From Dyella silvae (GTDB lineage: Bacteria; Pseudomonadota; Gammaproteobacteria; Xanthomonadales; Rhodanobacteraceae), in NCBI RefSeq assembly GCF_026421305.1, contig NZ_JAPJBQ010000002.1:806001-870000 (forward strand): 64,000 bases of DNA. Direction: 5' to 3'. Position 1 is the first letter of the stretch, and each line of letters starts with the position of its first letter. Of the stretch, positions 1 through 45,956 are shown piece after piece. Under the pieces are notes generated by a model that saw nothing but the letters and a program-made list of their open reading frames with translations, was not told the origin of the DNA and made no database searches. Position numbers and translations under genes: made by a program.

Positions 1-429
1 GGCACGGCTGATCGGTCCGCGCATGCACGGATTGCGCCACAGACTCTGCTTGACGATGCAATTGGCGTCGCGAATCTGGGATACCAGAAACACCACATCG
101 ATCAGCGACGGATGGTTGGCGATGATCATCTGGCCGGGCCGGCCGAGGCGCTCGGCGCCGATCACCTCGAACGTGAGCACGCCCGTGCGGTACATAAACT
201 GCACGTGCAGATGGAACGCGTAGCTGATCGCCGCCCGCATGCGGCGGCGGCGCGTCAGGCGGCATCCTGGCAACAGCCACAGCAGCGGGAACACCAGTGC
301 ATAAAGCAGCACGCCGCCGACACCAAAGAACGCGAAGCTCAAGCCGGTGGCGATAAGCCGCCAGAGATAGAAATCGCCGCGGCGCAGGCCTACGGGATCG
401 GCTGCCAGATCCATTGACGTGTCTTCCAT
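1..429 (-). CDS. Lysophospholipid-type acyltransferase of the aryl polyene cluster (3' end outside window)
   Basis: The reading frame runs off the left edge, so only the N-terminal ~143 residues are visible. A hydrophobic segment at about residues 20-55 suggests a membrane anchor. Further on is NHPSLIDVVFL, the NHxxxxD catalytic motif of PlsC-type glycerolipid acyltransferases. In aryl polyene clusters such an enzyme is thought to attach the polyene acyl chain to a lipid or glycolipid carrier at the inner membrane. I chose the ATG at 429 (MEDTSMDLAA); the ATG at 414 is an in-frame alternative. The start overlaps the 3' end of the upstream chain-length-factor-like gene, so the two are probably translationally coupled. 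Family assignment is firm, acceptor is inferred. Confidence 0.8.
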   Translation of the reverse strand, partial: MEDTSMDLAADPVGLRRGDFYLWRLIATGLSFAFFGVGGVLLYALVFPLLWLLPGCRLTRRRRMRAAISYAFHLHVQFMYRTGVLTFEVIGAERLGRPGQMIIANHPSLIDVVFLVSQIRDANCIVKQSLWRNPCMRGPISRA

Positions 430-1130
430 GTATGCACGAGAGAGGTGGTTGGTCCGTGCAACGCCCGTCGAACAAAGTCGAGTGCAAACGGCCAGTCGGT
501 TTTAACTTCGTTGGTGCTGCTGATGAGCTGCAGCTGCCAGCGTGAAGCAGGAGCAGTCCCGGTGCGTGAGGCACCCACGCGCAGCGCGACCGCATAGGAA
601 AAGGGGATATCGTCGATCCAGCCCGCATAGGGCGCGGGCGGGCGCTCTTCGGCGATCACCACGATGACGGCGGGCGCACCCTGGTCCAGTAGCGTGGCCG
701 CCTCGAGCATGGCGTGCTCGAACGTATCGCCCTCGCCAGCGATTGCCACCGCTTCGCCGCGTTGGCCGCGCAGGATGGACCACTGTCCGGCGATGGCGTT
801 GTGTACCGACAATCCGAACTGGGTGGGTGAAAGCGGCTGTTGATCGGCAACGTCGCCAAGCATGGCGTAGGTACGCGTGGTTTCGCCATGACGCGAGGCA
901 AATACGAACGGCAACTGCTCCTCGTCGCCACACAGCGGCCACGCCACGTGCAGCGCGATGCGCGCCATACGGCTGAGGCGGCGGCGTTGCATCGCTGGCA
1001 GGAAGCCGCAGTCCGGCTGCTCATCGTGTTCGTCGGGCGTCCACGGCGCGTTGGCCCAGGACTGCCAGGCTTCACTGCTATCCAATCCTGGTGCCCAGGC
1101 GCGCCAGTCGGCGATGCGCAGGTCGATCAT
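390..1130 (-). CDS. Beta-ketoacyl synthase chain length factor-like protein (KS N-terminal-like domain only)
   Basis: This 246-residue protein resembles the short ketosynthase-like proteins found in aryl polyene/xanthomonadin clusters (beta-ketoacyl-synthase-like N-terminal domain). The C-terminal half carries the family-like stretch SVHNAIAGQWSILRG followed by GEGDTFEHAM. No TACxSG nucleophile motif is present, so it is unlikely to condense acyl chains itself. A role in partnering or steering the full ketosynthases is inferred. The ATG at 1130 overlaps the stop of the preceding ketosynthase by 4 bp (ATGA), which fixes the start. Its own 3' end overlaps the acyltransferase gene. The open frame continues upstream of this ATG, but that part is a shadow of the ketosynthase gene. 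Confidence 0.8.
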   Translation of the reverse strand: MIDLRIADWRAWAPGLDSSEAWQSWANAPWTPDEHDEQPDCGFLPAMQRRRLSRMARIALHVAWPLCGDEEQLPFVFASRHGETTRTYAMLGDVADQQPLSPTQFGLSVHNAIAGQWSILRGQRGEAVAIAGEGDTFEHAMLEAATLLDQGAPAVIVVIAEERPPAPYAGWIDDIPFSYAVALRVGASRTGTAPASRWQLQLISSTNEVKTDWPFALDFVRRALHGPTTSLVHTWKTRQWIWQPIP

Positions 1131-2383
1131 GCATCGCCTCCGGTGTAGCGGCGGAACATCAGCGACGCGCAGCTGCCACCGAAGCCGAAGCTGTTGGACA
1201 GCGCACCGTCGATGCGATGGGGCGTTGTGACATCGAGCAGCGGTGCCTGACTGAACGCGGTATCGCGGTTGCCGATGGCGGTGCCGGTGGTAAAGCCGTG
1301 CTGCATCATCAGCAGGCAGGCGATGGCGTCCAGTGCGCCGGCCGCGGCTGGCGCATGACCGATCAACCCCTTGATGGATGACAGCGCAGGCACGCTGGAC
1401 TCGAGCTCGACAAACACGGTGGCAATCGCCTCCCACTCCGCCAGATCGCCCAGCGGCGTGGAGCAGGCATGGGTGTTGATGTAGTCGGGCAGGGCATCGG
1501 TTTGCGAGAGGGCCTGCCGCATCGCATCGGCGATGCCGGCCGGACCGGGACCGACCATGCTGGCCGCATCGGTGCTGGCGCCGTAACCGCACACTTCGGC
1601 GAGAATGCAGGCGCCGCGCGCCTGTGCGTGCTCGAGCGATTCCAGTACCAGCACGCCTGCGCCAGCGGCAAGCACGATGCCATCGCGTTCGGCGTCATAG
1701 GGACGTGATGCGCGGTCCGGTTGTGCATTGCTGTTGGTCGACAGGGCACCCATCGCATCGAACCAAAGCGCGGTGGTGTCGTGCAATTCTTCACTGCCGC
1801 CGCAGATTACTTGCTGCAGTTTGCCCAGCTGGATCAACTCCATGGCCTGGCCGATGGCATGCGCGCCGCTGGTACAGGCCGATGTAATCACCATGCTACG
1901 CCCACCGATGCCGAAGGCGTGGGCGAGATTGGCGGCCACCGAACTGCTCATCCCCCGCGTAACGATGTACGGCGACAGTCGCGCGATGCCGCGCGTGGCA
2001 AAGCTTTCCAGCGCCGTCTGGTGCTCGCTCAAGGCGGCACCGCCGCCGATGACCAGTCCGCACGAAGGCGAGGAGAGCTGCGCAGAGGTGAGTCCCGCTT
2101 GCGCAATCGCCTCCTTCGCGGCGTGCCAGGCGTACCAGGCCGTAGGCGGCAGGAAACGACGCAGTTTGCGTGGCGGCTCTTCCAGCAGGCTCTCGTCGAC
2201 CGGGCCGCCAACCTGGCAGCGCATGCCCAACGCCTCGAGCTGGTGCATATGGCGCAAGCCGCTGCGCCCGTGGCGCAATGCATCCAGCAGCTGATCATTG
2301 CCAACACCCACGCACGACACCGAGCCCATGCCGGTCACAACGACCCGGGGCATTGTCCGGCGAGGCGCGGCGGCAGCGTTCAT
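1127..2383 (-). CDS. Beta-ketoacyl-ACP synthase (FabF-like) with altered HGTGT motif, aryl polyene cluster
   Basis: A 418-residue type II ketosynthase. It has the N-terminal VVVTGMGSVS strand, a nucleophile in SACTSGAH (Cys170), a first catalytic His in INTHACSTPLGD and a second in KGLIGHAPAAAG. Cys-His-His is therefore intact, but the usual HGTGT sequence reads HACST. In E. coli-type aryl polyene biosynthesis a ketosynthase pairs with a diverged partner; this may be the diverged one of the two full-length enzymes here. It overlaps the upstream ketosynthase (stop at 2380) and the downstream CLF-like gene (start at 1130) by 4 bp each, so all three are one translationally coupled unit. Substrate preference is not visible in the sequence. 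Confidence 0.9.
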   Translation of the reverse strand: MNAAAAPRRTMPRVVVTGMGSVSCVGVGNDQLLDALRHGRSGLRHMHQLEALGMRCQVGGPVDESLLEEPPRKLRRFLPPTAWYAWHAAKEAIAQAGLTSAQLSSPSCGLVIGGGAALSEHQTALESFATRGIARLSPYIVTRGMSSSVAANLAHAFGIGGRSMVITSACTSGAHAIGQAMELIQLGKLQQVICGGSEELHDTTALWFDAMGALSTNSNAQPDRASRPYDAERDGIVLAAGAGVLVLESLEHAQARGACILAEVCGYGASTDAASMVGPGPAGIADAMRQALSQTDALPDYINTHACSTPLGDLAEWEAIATVFVELESSVPALSSIKGLIGHAPAAAGALDAIACLLMMQHGFTTGTAIGNRDTAFSQAPLLDVTTPHRIDGALSNSFGFGGSCASLMFRRYTGGDA

Positions 2384-3606
2384 GCGTCGGCTGCCTTGAA
2401 GATCAGCGACGTGTTGATGCCGCCGAAGGCAAAGTTATTGTTCATCACATAACGCGTATGGAGCGTGCGCCCCTCGCCGACGATGTAATCCAGCGGCGCG
2501 CACTCCGGGTCTGCCTGCTGCAGATTGAGCGTGGGAGCAAACCAACCCTCGCGCATCATCTCGATGGCCCACCAGGATTCCAGCGCGCCACAGGCGCCGA
2601 GGGTGTGGCCCACGTAGCCCTTCATGGAGCTGATCGGCGTTGCGGTGCCCAGCACCGAGGCCGTTGCGTGGCTTTCGGCCACGTCGCCGCGATCGGTCGC
2701 CGTGCCATGGGCACTGATGTAGCCGATGGCTTCGGGTGCCAGGCCGGCATCGTCCAGTGCCATGCGCATCGCGACGGCCATGGTTTCGCGAGTCGGCTGG
2801 GTGATGTGACTGCCGTCGGAGTTGCAGCCGAATCCAACCACCTCGGCATAGATGCGGGCACCGCGTGCGCGCGCATGTTCGTACTCTTCCAGTACCAGCG
2901 TCGTCGCACCTTCGCCGACCACCAGTCCATCGCGGGCGCGGTCGAATGGACGCGGCGTCAGTGCCGGTTCGTCATTGCGCGTGCTGGTGGCGAACAGCGT
3001 ATCGAACACGGCCGCGCCGGGGCCGGAGAGTTCTTCGGCGCCGCCACAGAGCATCAGTGTCTGCTTGCCTTGCTGGATCGCCTCATAGCCGAAGCCGATC
3101 GCCTGGCTACCCGACGTGCAGGCGCTGGAAGTCGGGATGATGCGCCCCTTCAGGCCGAAGAACACACCGACGTTCACCGCCGTGGTGTGCGCCATCATCT
3201 GGATATAGCTGGTCGCCGTAACGCCGTGCATGGAGCCGGTGTCGAGCATGTGACCCATCACGCGGATCGGCTCCACGCTGCCGCCGGATGATCCGTAAGC
3301 GACACCCATGCGGCCGTCGCTCACCGCGTCGTTGCCGAGCAGGCCGGCATCGGCCAGCGCTCGCTCACTGGCAGCCACGGCCAGCTGCGACACGCGCCCC
3401 ATCGAGCGAAGGTGACGGCGTGGCCAGGGCGGCAAGGTGAAATCGTCGACCGGGCAGCCGAGCCGCCCGTTGAGCGCGTCGAAGTAGTCCCATTCGGGCA
3501 TGCGGCGTACCGCATTGCGATACTGGCGCAAGCGCGCGGAAATGGTGGCCCAGTCATGGCCGAGCGGGGTGATGCCGCCGATGCCGGTGATGACGACGCG
3601 CTTCAT
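2380..3606 (-). CDS. Beta-ketoacyl-ACP synthase (FabF-like), aryl polyene cluster
   Basis: A 408-residue ketosynthase that starts MKRVVITGIGG, the normal N-terminus for the family, so I use the ATG at 3606 although the frame stays open upstream to 3723. It has the nucleophile in SSACTSGSQ (Cys163), canonical SAHGTATDRGD and MKGYVGHTLGACG histidine motifs, and full FabF length. It is therefore predicted to be fully active and to extend the polyene chain on the dedicated acyl carrier protein. It lies 31 bp after the stop of the MMPL exporter and overlaps the next ketosynthase by 4 bp. The specific role within the APE pathway (elongation versus initiation) is inferred from context only. Confidence 0.9.
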   Translation of the reverse strand: MKRVVITGIGGITPLGHDWATISARLRQYRNAVRRMPEWDYFDALNGRLGCPVDDFTLPPWPRRHLRSMGRVSQLAVAASERALADAGLLGNDAVSDGRMGVAYGSSGGSVEPIRVMGHMLDTGSMHGVTATSYIQMMAHTTAVNVGVFFGLKGRIIPTSSACTSGSQAIGFGYEAIQQGKQTLMLCGGAEELSGPGAAVFDTLFATSTRNDEPALTPRPFDRARDGLVVGEGATTLVLEEYEHARARGARIYAEVVGFGCNSDGSHITQPTRETMAVAMRMALDDAGLAPEAIGYISAHGTATDRGDVAESHATASVLGTATPISSMKGYVGHTLGACGALESWWAIEMMREGWFAPTLNLQQADPECAPLDYIVGEGRTLHTRYVMNNNFAFGGINTSLIFKAADA

Positions 3607-3637
3607 CAGTACGCGTCCTGCAGATGGGAAATTCGGT

Positions 3638-5998
3638 TCATGAATACGTCTCGGAGGCGGACAGGCTCGCCGGCGCAAACAGCGCCGTGATGCCAATGCC
3701 CAGCAACAAGGTGATGCCGACATGCTGCAGCGCCGGCATGGTGCTCAGGCCCAGCAGTCCAAACGAAAGCAGTGCCGTCACGGCGGAAAGCAGCACGCTG
3801 GCGTAGCTGGCGCCCGGCAGATGTGCCGTGTGAGGCTCACCCTCGCGCAGGAACACCGCGTAGTTGGCGCCAACACCAAGCACCAGCATCAGCGCCATCC
3901 AGTGGAACAAGGTCAGCGGCTCACCGAGGTAGCCGAACGTGGCCATGGTCAGGCCGATGCCAAGCAGCGGCGGCACCATGACGCGCACGGCGCTGCGGCC
4001 GTAGCGCCACGCGAACACGGCGCCGACCAGCAAGAGTGCCGCCAACAGCCACAGGCTGGCGTACTCGCGATAGCGTCCGAACAGCGCCGACACGCTTGCC
4101 GGCTTGTCGACCAGATGCGTGTCCTGCAGGCCGTTTGTCGCGCTGCGCAGAATGTCGGCATCGTTCTGGCCTTGCGGCAGCACGATCGATGCGTAGCCGT
4201 GTTCGCTCTGGCTCATCCACAGATAACGGAAGGGTAAGGACAAGGGCATCGACAGCCAGTCGTCAATCTTGAGCACGCGACCGGGCCAGCCCGCCAGATA
4301 GGCTTCGGCGATGGATGCCTTGATACCGGCCTGCTGGAGGGTGGCATCCAGCGCGGCACCCGGTGCGAACAGCGGCGCCAGCGCCGACTGGTTGTCGTGC
4401 TGGCGTTCTGCGGACGGCACCATGCTGGCCACGCCGGTCCAGCCATCGAGCTGCTGTTGCGCGACGAGTGCCTGCAGGCGTTGTTCCAGTGCTTCTTCGC
4501 GTTGCAGGGTCTGCTCAGGGGTGTCGCCCGTCACCAGGTAGAACTGGCTGACGTTGCCGATACCGGTGATGTCCCGGATGCGCGCTTCTTGCTGAGTCAG
4601 TGCGGCCGGTGGCGTGACCAGCAGGCGGATGTCGTCATCGTGGCCAAGGCGCAACCAGCCGGGGATGGCCAGGGCGATAACCAGCACAAACAGCGCGGCG
4701 CCGGTGCGTCCTTGTGCGAGGCGTGCCACACGCCGTTGCCACGCCCACGAGATGGTTATCAGGGCCGGGGTGAGCGCTCGGGTGGATGGGCTGGCGGCGA
4801 GGGCGGGCAGCAGCCAGAACACGCTAAGGCAGGCCACGGTCATGCCCACCATGGCGAAACAGGCCATCTGGCGTAGCGCCGGGAACGGCACCAATCCCAG
4901 CAGGGCGTAGCCCAGCAGTGAGGTACCCAACGCCAGCAGCAGCGCCGGACGTACCTGCCGGGCGCCACGTTGTGGTTGCCAGCCGGTACCCGCATAGGCG
5001 CGTGCGCAGAGGTACTGAATGGAATAATCCACCGCTTCGCCGAGCAAGGCGGCACCGAACACCAGCGTAAGCAGATGGATCTGGCCGAACACCAGCAACG
5101 TCACCGCGAGCGCACTCACCACGCCGATGGCAGTGGAGAGAAAGGCCACCAGCAGCGGCCGTGGCGAGCGGAAGGTCCACAACAGCAGCAGTGCAATGCC
5201 GAGGGTCGAGGCCAGTCCAACGACATGCACGTCGCGCTCGGCGCCGGCACGCGCTGCTGCCGCATAAAACACGGCGCCGGTACGCAGCAACTGCACGCCT
5301 TGATAGTCGCGCTCAACGCCATGCCACGCACGGTCTAGCGCTTCGAGCGCGACGCGTTGCACACCATCGTCATAGGACGAGCCGCGCAGGTTGGCGATCA
5401 CCATCACATAGGTGAGATCGTCGCGATGGGCAGTGAGCAGGTCGTCTTCGGGGACCAGCGGCGAGCGGCTCCACGGCTGCTGATCCATCCAGCGCTGGAG
5501 CCAGCCGAACGGATCGTCCTGCACACGAGTGCCAACGCCGGCGAGAAATGGTTCATTCAATCGGCGCGCCAGTGTCTGGCTTGCGTTGTACTGGGGGTGT
5601 GCGAGGTTCGCCCGGTCCGCATCGCTGAGCAGGCTGAAACGATAGGGCAGGTAAGGGGCAATAAACTGGTTGAGATCGAAATCCGGCAGCTCGGCGATAA
5701 CCGATGAAAACGCGTTGGTGGCAGTCAGCGCCTTGCCGAGTGCGCGGGCAGCGTCCTTCGCCTTGGCATCGTCCGCATCGACGACCACCAGCACCATGCG
5801 GTCGCCGTTGGCGTGTGCCAGGCGTTCTACTGCGGCTTCGGCCAGTGGATGGCGTTCGGTGACGGGCAACATTGCCAGCAGGTCCGTCTGGATCGGCAGC
5901 GGACCGCGCCCGAACAGTTGCCAGGCACCCAGCAGCACCATGCCCAGCGCGAAGCCAGCAAACAGCAGTGCACGCAGGGTCAGGCCGCGAGTGTTCAT
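3638..5998 (-). CDS. MMPL/RND-family exporter of the aryl polyene cluster
   Basis: The product has 786 residues. A first membrane helix lies near residues 8-27, followed by a large periplasmic loop. A helix cluster at about residues 245-420 contains GEAVDYSIQYLCARAY, similar to the GxxxDY motif used for proton relay in RND transporters. A second large loop and a second helix cluster (about 640-786) with LGVGANYAVFLREGE follow. This two-repeat plan fits the MMPL/RND exporter encoded in aryl polyene clusters, predicted to move the acylated pigment across the inner membrane. It starts at 5998 with a 4-bp overlap of the LolA-like gene, consistent with a coupled export pair. Confidence 0.88.
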   Translation of the reverse strand: MNTRGLTLRALLFAGFALGMVLLGAWQLFGRGPLPIQTDLLAMLPVTERHPLAEAAVERLAHANGDRMVLVVVDADDAKAKDAARALGKALTATNAFSSVIAELPDFDLNQFIAPYLPYRFSLLSDADRANLAHPQYNASQTLARRLNEPFLAGVGTRVQDDPFGWLQRWMDQQPWSRSPLVPEDDLLTAHRDDLTYVMVIANLRGSSYDDGVQRVALEALDRAWHGVERDYQGVQLLRTGAVFYAAAARAGAERDVHVVGLASTLGIALLLLWTFRSPRPLLVAFLSTAIGVVSALAVTLLVFGQIHLLTLVFGAALLGEAVDYSIQYLCARAYAGTGWQPQRGARQVRPALLLALGTSLLGYALLGLVPFPALRQMACFAMVGMTVACLSVFWLLPALAASPSTRALTPALITISWAWQRRVARLAQGRTGAALFVLVIALAIPGWLRLGHDDDIRLLVTPPAALTQQEARIRDITGIGNVSQFYLVTGDTPEQTLQREEALEQRLQALVAQQQLDGWTGVASMVPSAERQHDNQSALAPLFAPGAALDATLQQAGIKASIAEAYLAGWPGRVLKIDDWLSMPLSLPFRYLWMSQSEHGYASIVLPQGQNDADILRSATNGLQDTHLVDKPASVSALFGRYREYASLWLLAALLLVGAVFAWRYGRSAVRVMVPPLLGIGLTMATFGYLGEPLTLFHWMALMLVLGVGANYAVFLREGEPHTAHLPGASYASVLLSAVTALLSFGLLGLSTMPALQHVGITLLLGIGITALFAPASLSASETYS

Positions 5999-32947: not shown

Positions 32948-33212
32948 GGGCCTGTTCACACTATCCGTGTGGCCCGCGCCGGGAGCTTTTTGCCCGCCAG
33001 ACAAGGAAGAGTGAGGGACTGTATGTCGATACACGACCGAGCGATGACGCGGGATGGCGGGCAAAAAGACCCGGCCCTACGGGTTGCTTGTGCGTGGCCG
33101 CCATGCGGCAGCGCGCGGCTTGACCTGGCAGCCAGCCAGGCCTGCGCCACGCACTACCACCTGACGGCCACGCACAAGCAACGCGGGCTACACGGATAGT
33201 GTGAACAGGCCC
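32948..33212. mobile_element. Nested palindromic (MITE-like) element A with structured core
   Basis: Terminal inverted repeats of 31 nt (32948-32978 and 33182-33212) match at 30 positions, the outer 23 perfectly. Inside are two further hairpins: 32979-32999 with 33055-33074, and a perfect 18-bp pair 33083-33100 with 33165-33182. The second encloses a 40-nt core at 33114-33153 that reads TGCGTGGCGCAGG...TCAAGCCGCG on the minus strand and also occurs in the element at 45732-45956. It encodes no protein. Its right end coincides with the stop codon of the Hsp70-like gene. The rest of 32808-32947 holds no gene. Confidence 0.7.
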
Positions 33213-45731: not shown

Positions 45732-45956
45732 TTAAGGAAGCTCTGATCTATTCCCCATACCCGGCATGACGTCCAGAAGGCCCGCAGGGTGTGCTGCGTG
45801 GCGCAGGGCAGACTGGCCGTCTGTTCAAGCCGCGTGGCACGCCCTGCGGGCCTTCTGGGCGTCACCCCAGCATCTAAATTCAAAACGTTGGGGCCGCACG
45901 CTATGCGCGCATACCGTGCGGTGACGGGTATGGGGAATAGATCAGAGCTTCCTTAA
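45732..45956. mobile_element. Nested palindromic (MITE-like) element B with structured core
   Basis: Perfect 32-bp terminal inverted repeats (45732-45763 and 45925-45956) begin TTAAGGAAGCTCTGATC and could include a TTAA target duplication. Inside is a second inverted pair (45768-45794 with 45838-45864, 25 of 27 positions) that encloses a 40-nt core at 45795-45834, TGCGTGGCGCAGG...TCAAGCCGCG, shared with element A. A further hairpin (CCGCACG...CGTGCGG around a TATGCGCGCATA palindrome) fills the right side. It encodes no protein and lies in the 415-bp gap between two divergent genes. Confidence 0.72.

Follow-up and report, generated by a model that had tools for sequence, protein, structure and literature searches.

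Two palindromic elements, A and B, lie in the 64,000-nucleotide stretch of the Dyella silvae genome that was analysed (contig NZ_JAPJBQ010000002.1, positions 806,001 to 870,000; the window). Each carries a 40-nt core that forms the tip of a long hairpin (arm 1) within the larger palindromic element. The first-pass annotation had placed one core on the minus and the other on the plus strand, with identical flanks around two differing hairpins; exact matching confirmed the sites, strands, flanks and hairpins, and the stem changes between the two hairpins are as it described them. The pattern TGCGTGGCGCAGG-N12..22-TCAAGCCGCG occurs exactly twice in the window and in none of 100 dinucleotide shuffles. 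Folding of both elements bears out the core hairpin, as 8 bp with a 5-nt loop, and redraws the internal loop beneath it, for which GCAGG and TCAA had been proposed, as GCA/AA.

Taken whole, each element folds as a base stem, formed by the terminal repeats, that bears the arms (Table 1). The z-scores are -18.8 for A and -18.7 for B, with 0 of 200 shuffles folding as well, values for which the long inverted repeats alone suffice. R1, a covariance model of arm 1, matches element A at 33098-33169 on the minus strand (91.5 bits) and element B at 45779-45850 on the plus strand (91.1 bits). The ORF that adjoins element A we take, by eye, to be Hsp70-like.

Table 1. Coordinates in the window of the two elements, their parts and the ORF adjoining element A
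Feature	Position	Strand	Basis or description
Element A, putative class I MITE	32948..33212	- (arm 1 core strand)	terminal inverted repeats; ends and layout recur in other copies
Terminal inverted repeats of element A	32948-32978 / 33182-33212		31 nt, 97% complementary
Arm 2 of element A	32979..33079	+	inverted repeats I3, I7; motif with conserved AAGGAAG
Arm 1 of element A, core-bearing long hairpin	33080..33185	-	inverted repeat 33080-33119 / 33146-33185
Core of element A	33114..33153	-	GGC, internal loop GCA/AA, 8-bp hairpin, loop UGGCU; exact match, compared over 150 loci
Neighbouring ORF, 495 aa	33212..34699	-	TAG stop overlaps outermost base of element A
Element B, putative class II MITE, arm 2 shortened	45732..45956	+	terminal inverted repeats
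Terminal inverted repeats of element B	45732-45766 / 45922-45956		35 nt, 97% complementary
Arm 1 of element B	45767..45864	+	inverted repeat 45767-45802 / 45829-45864
Core of element B	45795..45834	+	internal loop GCA/AA, hairpin loop UGGCC; exact match and fold
Small CCCC/GGGG hairpin, A+T-rich loop, between element B arms	45865..45893	.	fold; alike in several class II copies
Arm 2 remnant of element B, plain palindrome	45894..45921	.	inverted repeat I3; compared with L050, L042, L022

The first-pass annotation had not recognised the core as a described family, and as regards Rfam this holds: the window has no match at the gathering threshold. Searched with lax thresholds, two copies drew no model at its gathering score, most of those listed being microRNA precursors or other hairpin-like models, and readings as a hammerhead, an attC site or a group II domain V were weighed on general grounds and set aside. 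No description of the element was met in the titles or abstract openings of the open-licence PMC papers listed, and a class I copy compared with plasmids and a class II copy compared with phages gave no match.

Two terminal-repeat classes and their insertion sequences

Elements A and B represent two terminal-repeat classes that have the core in common and differ in their terminal repeats and outer arms. Class I copies (element A) end like GAGCCTGTTCA or GGGCCTGTTCA, and their arm 2 has a different conserved motif; class II copies (element B) end like GGGATGCTCTGATC. In the longer class II copies the opposite strand of arm 2 reads GGCGAAGGCAGACTGGCTGTCTGTCGAGACGG, a diverged core, and the arm 2 remnant of element B is without this antisense core: element B has lost its second core. 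R1 meets arm 2 solely on the strand opposite arm 1, in 10 of 10 matches in the window's genome and 9 of 9 at other loci (L119 and L142 being left out of the latter set as repeats of L069 and L075). Because arm 1 hairpins also give R1 scores of 35-56 bits on their wrong strand, the arm 2 matches of the model by themselves argue weakly for homology, and the visible motif, not the R1 score, is the main evidence for a core in arm 2.

At 4 of 247 loci a REP-like hairpin of about 45 bp (CTCGCTCCTCAA..GCCATCCATGGC..CCCGCGTGC) lies within arm 2, close to the tip, in copies of both classes (L054 1677-1721, L072 1351-1395, L109 199-243 and L114 470-514, with a similar one in L096). In REPs of the REPIN type, mobilised by RAYTs, each hairpin has a GTAG-type tag at its foot. 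GTAG is present inside the 5' side of arm 1 at 46 of 150 loci, within the stem and not at its foot.

Both kinds of end also bound insertion sequences in relatives. A class I end does so in the genome G041 (locus L269), around two overlapping ORFs with DUF4096 and DDE_Tnp_1 domains, and a class II end in G017 (L272), around an ORF with DUF772 and DDE_Tnp_1 that covers 259 of 285 profile positions, ending 26 short; NCBIfam names both transposases IS5 family. The G041 genome holds 110 copies of AGAGCCTGTTCA. Among relatives, matching ends were found at one of three loci with the transposase model PF13340 and at one of four with PF05598. Neither model has a match in the window's own genome, and most of the element-rich genomes searched are without either (PF13340 in 2 of 7, PF05598 in 2 of 8). 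For the ends, the free-standing new element class proposed in the first-pass annotation thus gives way to a known insertion-sequence family, the very finding that it had named as evidence against itself. Since the terminal repeats match those of IS5-family insertion sequences, the carrier is, to judge from sequence, an IS5-type MITE with the structured core as its cargo. It has the usual MITE traits, being without a transposase gene, short (265 bp for element A, 225 bp for element B) and multicopy (at least about 31 places in the window's genome).

Relatives hold copies of which only 53-55 bp, all terminal repeat, is left (L250, L251, L253, L254), so that the arms are not needed for persistence, and also one-armed copies, L252 with arm 1 only and L256 and L258 with arm 2 only. 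Flanking 3-mers are identical at 7 of 15 loci with paired ends, where 3.5 would be expected and 160 of 5000 shuffles reach as high a number. In first flank statistics, class I showed no clear duplication and class II only palindromic TA-type flanks. The flanks of element A do not match; those of element B are the palindromic TTAA on both sides, which extension of the ends could also give. In a search of the genus for an empty site of element A, the gene side aligned in 18 relatives and the sequence beyond the element in none.

At L269 (1364-2600) the IS5-type insertion sequence is nested in what is left of a second copy of itself, and TGA flanks the outer ends on both sides. At L248 a pair of ends 3.5 kb apart was considered as a larger element and rejected, being a composite of two inverted copies of a repeat of about 520 bp around an ORF; these repeats (249-3780), with AGAGCCTGTTCA ends, flank a 738-aa ORF, presumably a trimeric autotransporter by its appearance, and could make up a composite transposon. 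The large repeat of L248 and L249 carries CTTTCTCTTTGCTGACCCAAAGAGAAAG-type pyrimidine/purine tracts that may be triplex-forming.

Distribution and conservation of the core

A slightly shortened core pattern occurs nine times in the window's genome. R1 has at least 43 matches there, which we take to represent about 31 places, with 10 second arms and 2 readings in reverse; this is a lower bound, from the best 150 of 2186 candidates, and two of the places are at contig ends. The two contig-end loci L025 and L026 (G000) have identical cores; the assembly breaks inside the element, which leaves the copy number slightly uncertain.

Across wider samples, each including the window's own genome, R1 matches at least 75 of 147 family genomes (at least 20 of 26 genera) and at least 38 of 250 genomes drawn from the order; among 369 drawn from the class it matches at least one, the window's own being the only one among the matches scored. 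These figures rest on the best 33, 19 and 13 candidates per genome for family, order and class, respectively, so weak matches are lost and copy numbers are lower bounds. Beyond the window's family, five loci were inspected by sequence, all in one other family of the order, and weaker R1 matches occur in three further families of the order. Among named genomes, 21 of 61 stretches with the exact pattern also match R1, and these belong to Dyella species, a Rhodanobacter denitrificans MAG, a Rhodanobacteraceae bacterium, Pseudoxanthomonas winnipegensis and Xanthomonas sp. NCPPB 1128; the other 40, without an R1 match, were taken as chance.

Among the 150 loci compared, five of them from the second family, the core takes 146 distinct forms, with unpaired bases that are largely kept: the 3' internal loop is AA at 144 loci, the 5' internal loop GCA at 100 and GCC at 26, and the top of the hairpin CTGGCCG or CTGGCTG at 124. 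Among the 145 loci with a CTGG top there are 59 different stems. In an alignment of 57-58 rows from the window's genome and family relatives (L039 was dropped from 59 loci at the cut-off), 97.5% of the 1710 cells are paired, both sides have changed in 23 of the 30 pairs, and 0 of 500 shuffles reached any of the five measures observed; with related rows and an alignment fitted to the structure, such figures are tilted in its favour.

The first-pass annotation had argued from compensatory changes between its two copies to selection on a folded single strand. Two such copies are insufficient for that, because templated repair also keeps long palindromes paired. The covariance-model search of the genome and its relatives that it suggested has nonetheless produced many copies with further covariation, and these, together with the conserved unpaired loops and the strand bias described below, support a selected single-strand fold rather than chance palindromes. 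Its interpretation overall is partly supported.

The copies seem to lie close to the 3' ends of genes, as predicted by a simple codon-usage caller on 3-kb loci for 67 elements with neighbours on both sides. In raw distances, predicted gene 3' ends are a median of 2 nt away, 45 of 57 being no farther than 60 nt, and predicted 5' ends a median of 79 nt (29 of 77 within 60 nt). Gene 3' ends within 15 nt number 23 on the arm 1 side and 14 on the arm 2 side, which is no significant bias (p = 0.19). As TAA, TGA, TCA and TTA each read as a stop on one of the two strands, insertion at a stop codon could leave the stop intact.

Wobble decay in the two arms

A palindrome kept at the DNA level alone should lose its pairs to G-T and to A-C mismatches equally often, and the ratio of the two on a given strand is thus the test of single-strand folding applied here. 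Wobble alignments comprised 66 class I and 40 class II copies (7 of the 150 R1 loci were without a boundary, and a length and class filter left out 37 of the other 143); changes were counted on a tree, over the union of the pairs predicted on both strands. Read on the core strand, changes of Watson-Crick pairs in arm 1 went to G-T and A-C in 66 and 9 events in class I and in 65 and 15 in class II. In arm 2 the bias is the reverse, 17 to 54 and 11 to 38, so that class I arm 2, with its own motif, is also biased to fold on the strand opposite arm 1. The base stem is even, 32 to 36 and 21 to 19. Two-sided binomial p values run from 8e-12 to 1e-4 for the arms and are 0.72 and 0.87 for the base stem.

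Raw counts of G-T and A-C cells, class I then class II, are 343:9 and 162:15 in arm 1, 17:75 and 27:98 in arm 2, and 44:70 and 67:27 in the base stem, where a single column gives 7:32 of the class I count and another 40:0 of the class II count. By columns, those with more G-T than A-C and those with the opposite number 26:4 and 17:12 in arm 1, 6:14 and 6:15 in arm 2, and 8:13 and 8:5 in the base stem; by this measure class II arm 1 has the weakest strand bias.

Both C>T and A>G steps feed the wobble bias. Damage to an exposed strand should also be seen at unpaired columns, which are few. In arm 1 these have 14 C>T to 4 G>A changes in class I and 7 to 2 in class II, and no excess of A>G (3 against 9 T>C in class I, 0 against 3 in class II). 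In arm 2 the unpaired changes track base content and not strand, C>T affecting 38 of 874 C and G>A 14 of 299 G in class I, and 14 of 353 C and 10 of 140 G in class II.

The base stem has double changes that keep a pair in 189 events in class I and 100 in class II, without strand bias, and these are read here as templated repair or as renewal by transposition. The inner terminal-repeat sequence is very variable among copies and largely complementary, again with no strand bias, a pattern pointing to renewal of one end with the other as template.

Copies that have a gene end solely on the arm 1 side (17) and those that have one solely on the arm 2 side (7) show a similar wobble bias, so the constraint seems to follow the lineage of the element and not the local gene; the bias has no visible dependence on local transcription, and much of it may be inherited. 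As the wobble decay splits by arm, each arm seems to be under selection for a single-stranded fold on its own strand, the two strands being opposite.

A structured cargo and its possible roles

Accounts of MITE transcripts usually go no further than stable stem loops. Correia/NEMIS, RUP, ERIC and QMITE are bacterial MITEs that insertion sequences mobilise (PMC2229807, PMC10969869), and they resemble the present elements in being small, non-autonomous, multicopy and mostly intergenic, with terminal inverted repeats, transcripts predicted to fold, and ends that match an insertion sequence. The present elements, compared with Correia, ERIC and RUP by description, differ in having two terminal-repeat classes around one structured core and an opposite strand bias of the arms. 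REPINs, which are inverted REP doublets associated with RAYT transposases, share the inverted doublet of palindromic units, the compensatory changes and the extragenic position (PMC3116915), whereas here there are IS5-family ends, a length of about 225-300 bp, and a base stem with two long arms. According to PMC2229807, bacterial repeats other than CIR form a stem loop by pairing of their ends, with no arms, and CIR of Caulobacter and Brucella has, like the present elements, a linker between two long hairpin arms. One terminal loop of CIR bears a GANTC motif, and CIR is described there as only partly MITE-like; the present elements have instead a UGGCY core with a GCA/AA loop and are closed by a base stem of terminal repeats. 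Since structured MITEs and palindromic repeats of these kinds (ERIC, Correia, RUP, REPIN, CIR) are known from such accounts, the element is not wholly new in kind; what is new here is the strand-split wobble signature of its two arms.

The explanation that we favour, with a probability of roughly 0.55, is that two IS5-type MITE classes share a structured cargo whose arms would fold on opposite strands, in the RNA of transcripts from neighbouring genes. The terminal repeats would be the DNA part, presumably recognised by IS5-type transposases in trans. Arm 1, with its fixed GCA/AA internal loop and UGGCY hairpin loop, would be selected to fold on one strand, and arm 2, which in long class II copies contains the diverged core copy in inverted orientation, on the other, so that from either end, read 5' to 3', the folding arm would come first. 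Given the tendency of the elements to adjoin stop codons, transcripts of neighbouring genes would enter from either end, and whichever arm is then at the 5' side would fold in the RNA as a protein-binding, RNA-stabilising or processing domain. That RNA and not single-stranded DNA is the folding molecule, and what its role would be, we infer: gene 3' ends often adjoin the element, which should let transcripts run into it from either end, and wobble pairs are very well tolerated. A wider version, less likely than not, would make the element a direction-independent mobile RNA device of the Xanthomonadales, with one domain per strand, of which the first-made arm folds and binds a host factor, and which is borne on two classes of IS5-type ends.

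The arms might instead form single-stranded DNA or cruciform hairpins, with a DNA-binding protein taking arm 1 and arm 2 on opposite strands, for example in transposition or replication. The inverted two-core layout of class II, which mirrors two transposon ends, speaks for such a role, as do a bias with no visible dependence on gene side, which suits element propagation, and the better tolerance of G-T than of A-C in folded DNA. IS5-type transposases, however, act on double-stranded ends, copies of little more than terminal repeats exist, and no partner protein was found in a profile search that comprised the two transposase models; we regard this DNA role as rather unlikely. That the core is an ancestral relic and the internal sequence inherited filler of plain IS5 MITEs is very improbable: hairpin elements with identical terminal repeats and no core (L249, L259) would fit, as would the one-armed copies, but the unpaired bases are largely kept while the stems vary across the 150 loci, those of the second family included.

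A reading without any strand-specific function would have templated (quasi-palindrome) correction keep the pairing and damage to an exposed strand give the bias. Pair-keeping double changes are indeed common, in the base stem too, as templated copying would produce; single-strand deamination is expected to cause C>T and A>G on one strand, and C>T exceeds G>A at the unpaired columns of arm 1. Templated correction would nevertheless erase internal and hairpin loops, which have stayed unpaired and conserved, the base stem of the same elements is without bias, and in both classes the two arms are biased in opposite ways. Also missing from the few unpaired columns of arm 1 is the A>G excess predicted from such damage, and at those of arm 2, also few, base content and not strand accounts for the changes. 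Correction and damage are therefore an improbable explanation.

The terminal repeats serve as an internal control within each element, their pairing being kept without strand preference, in contrast to the pairing of both arms, which is tied to one strand. The comparison of G-T with A-C decay is cheap and can be applied to other bacterial palindromic repeats as a test of single-strand folding. If the RNA reading is true, a mobile element would be spreading conserved RNA domains beside gene ends across a bacterial order.
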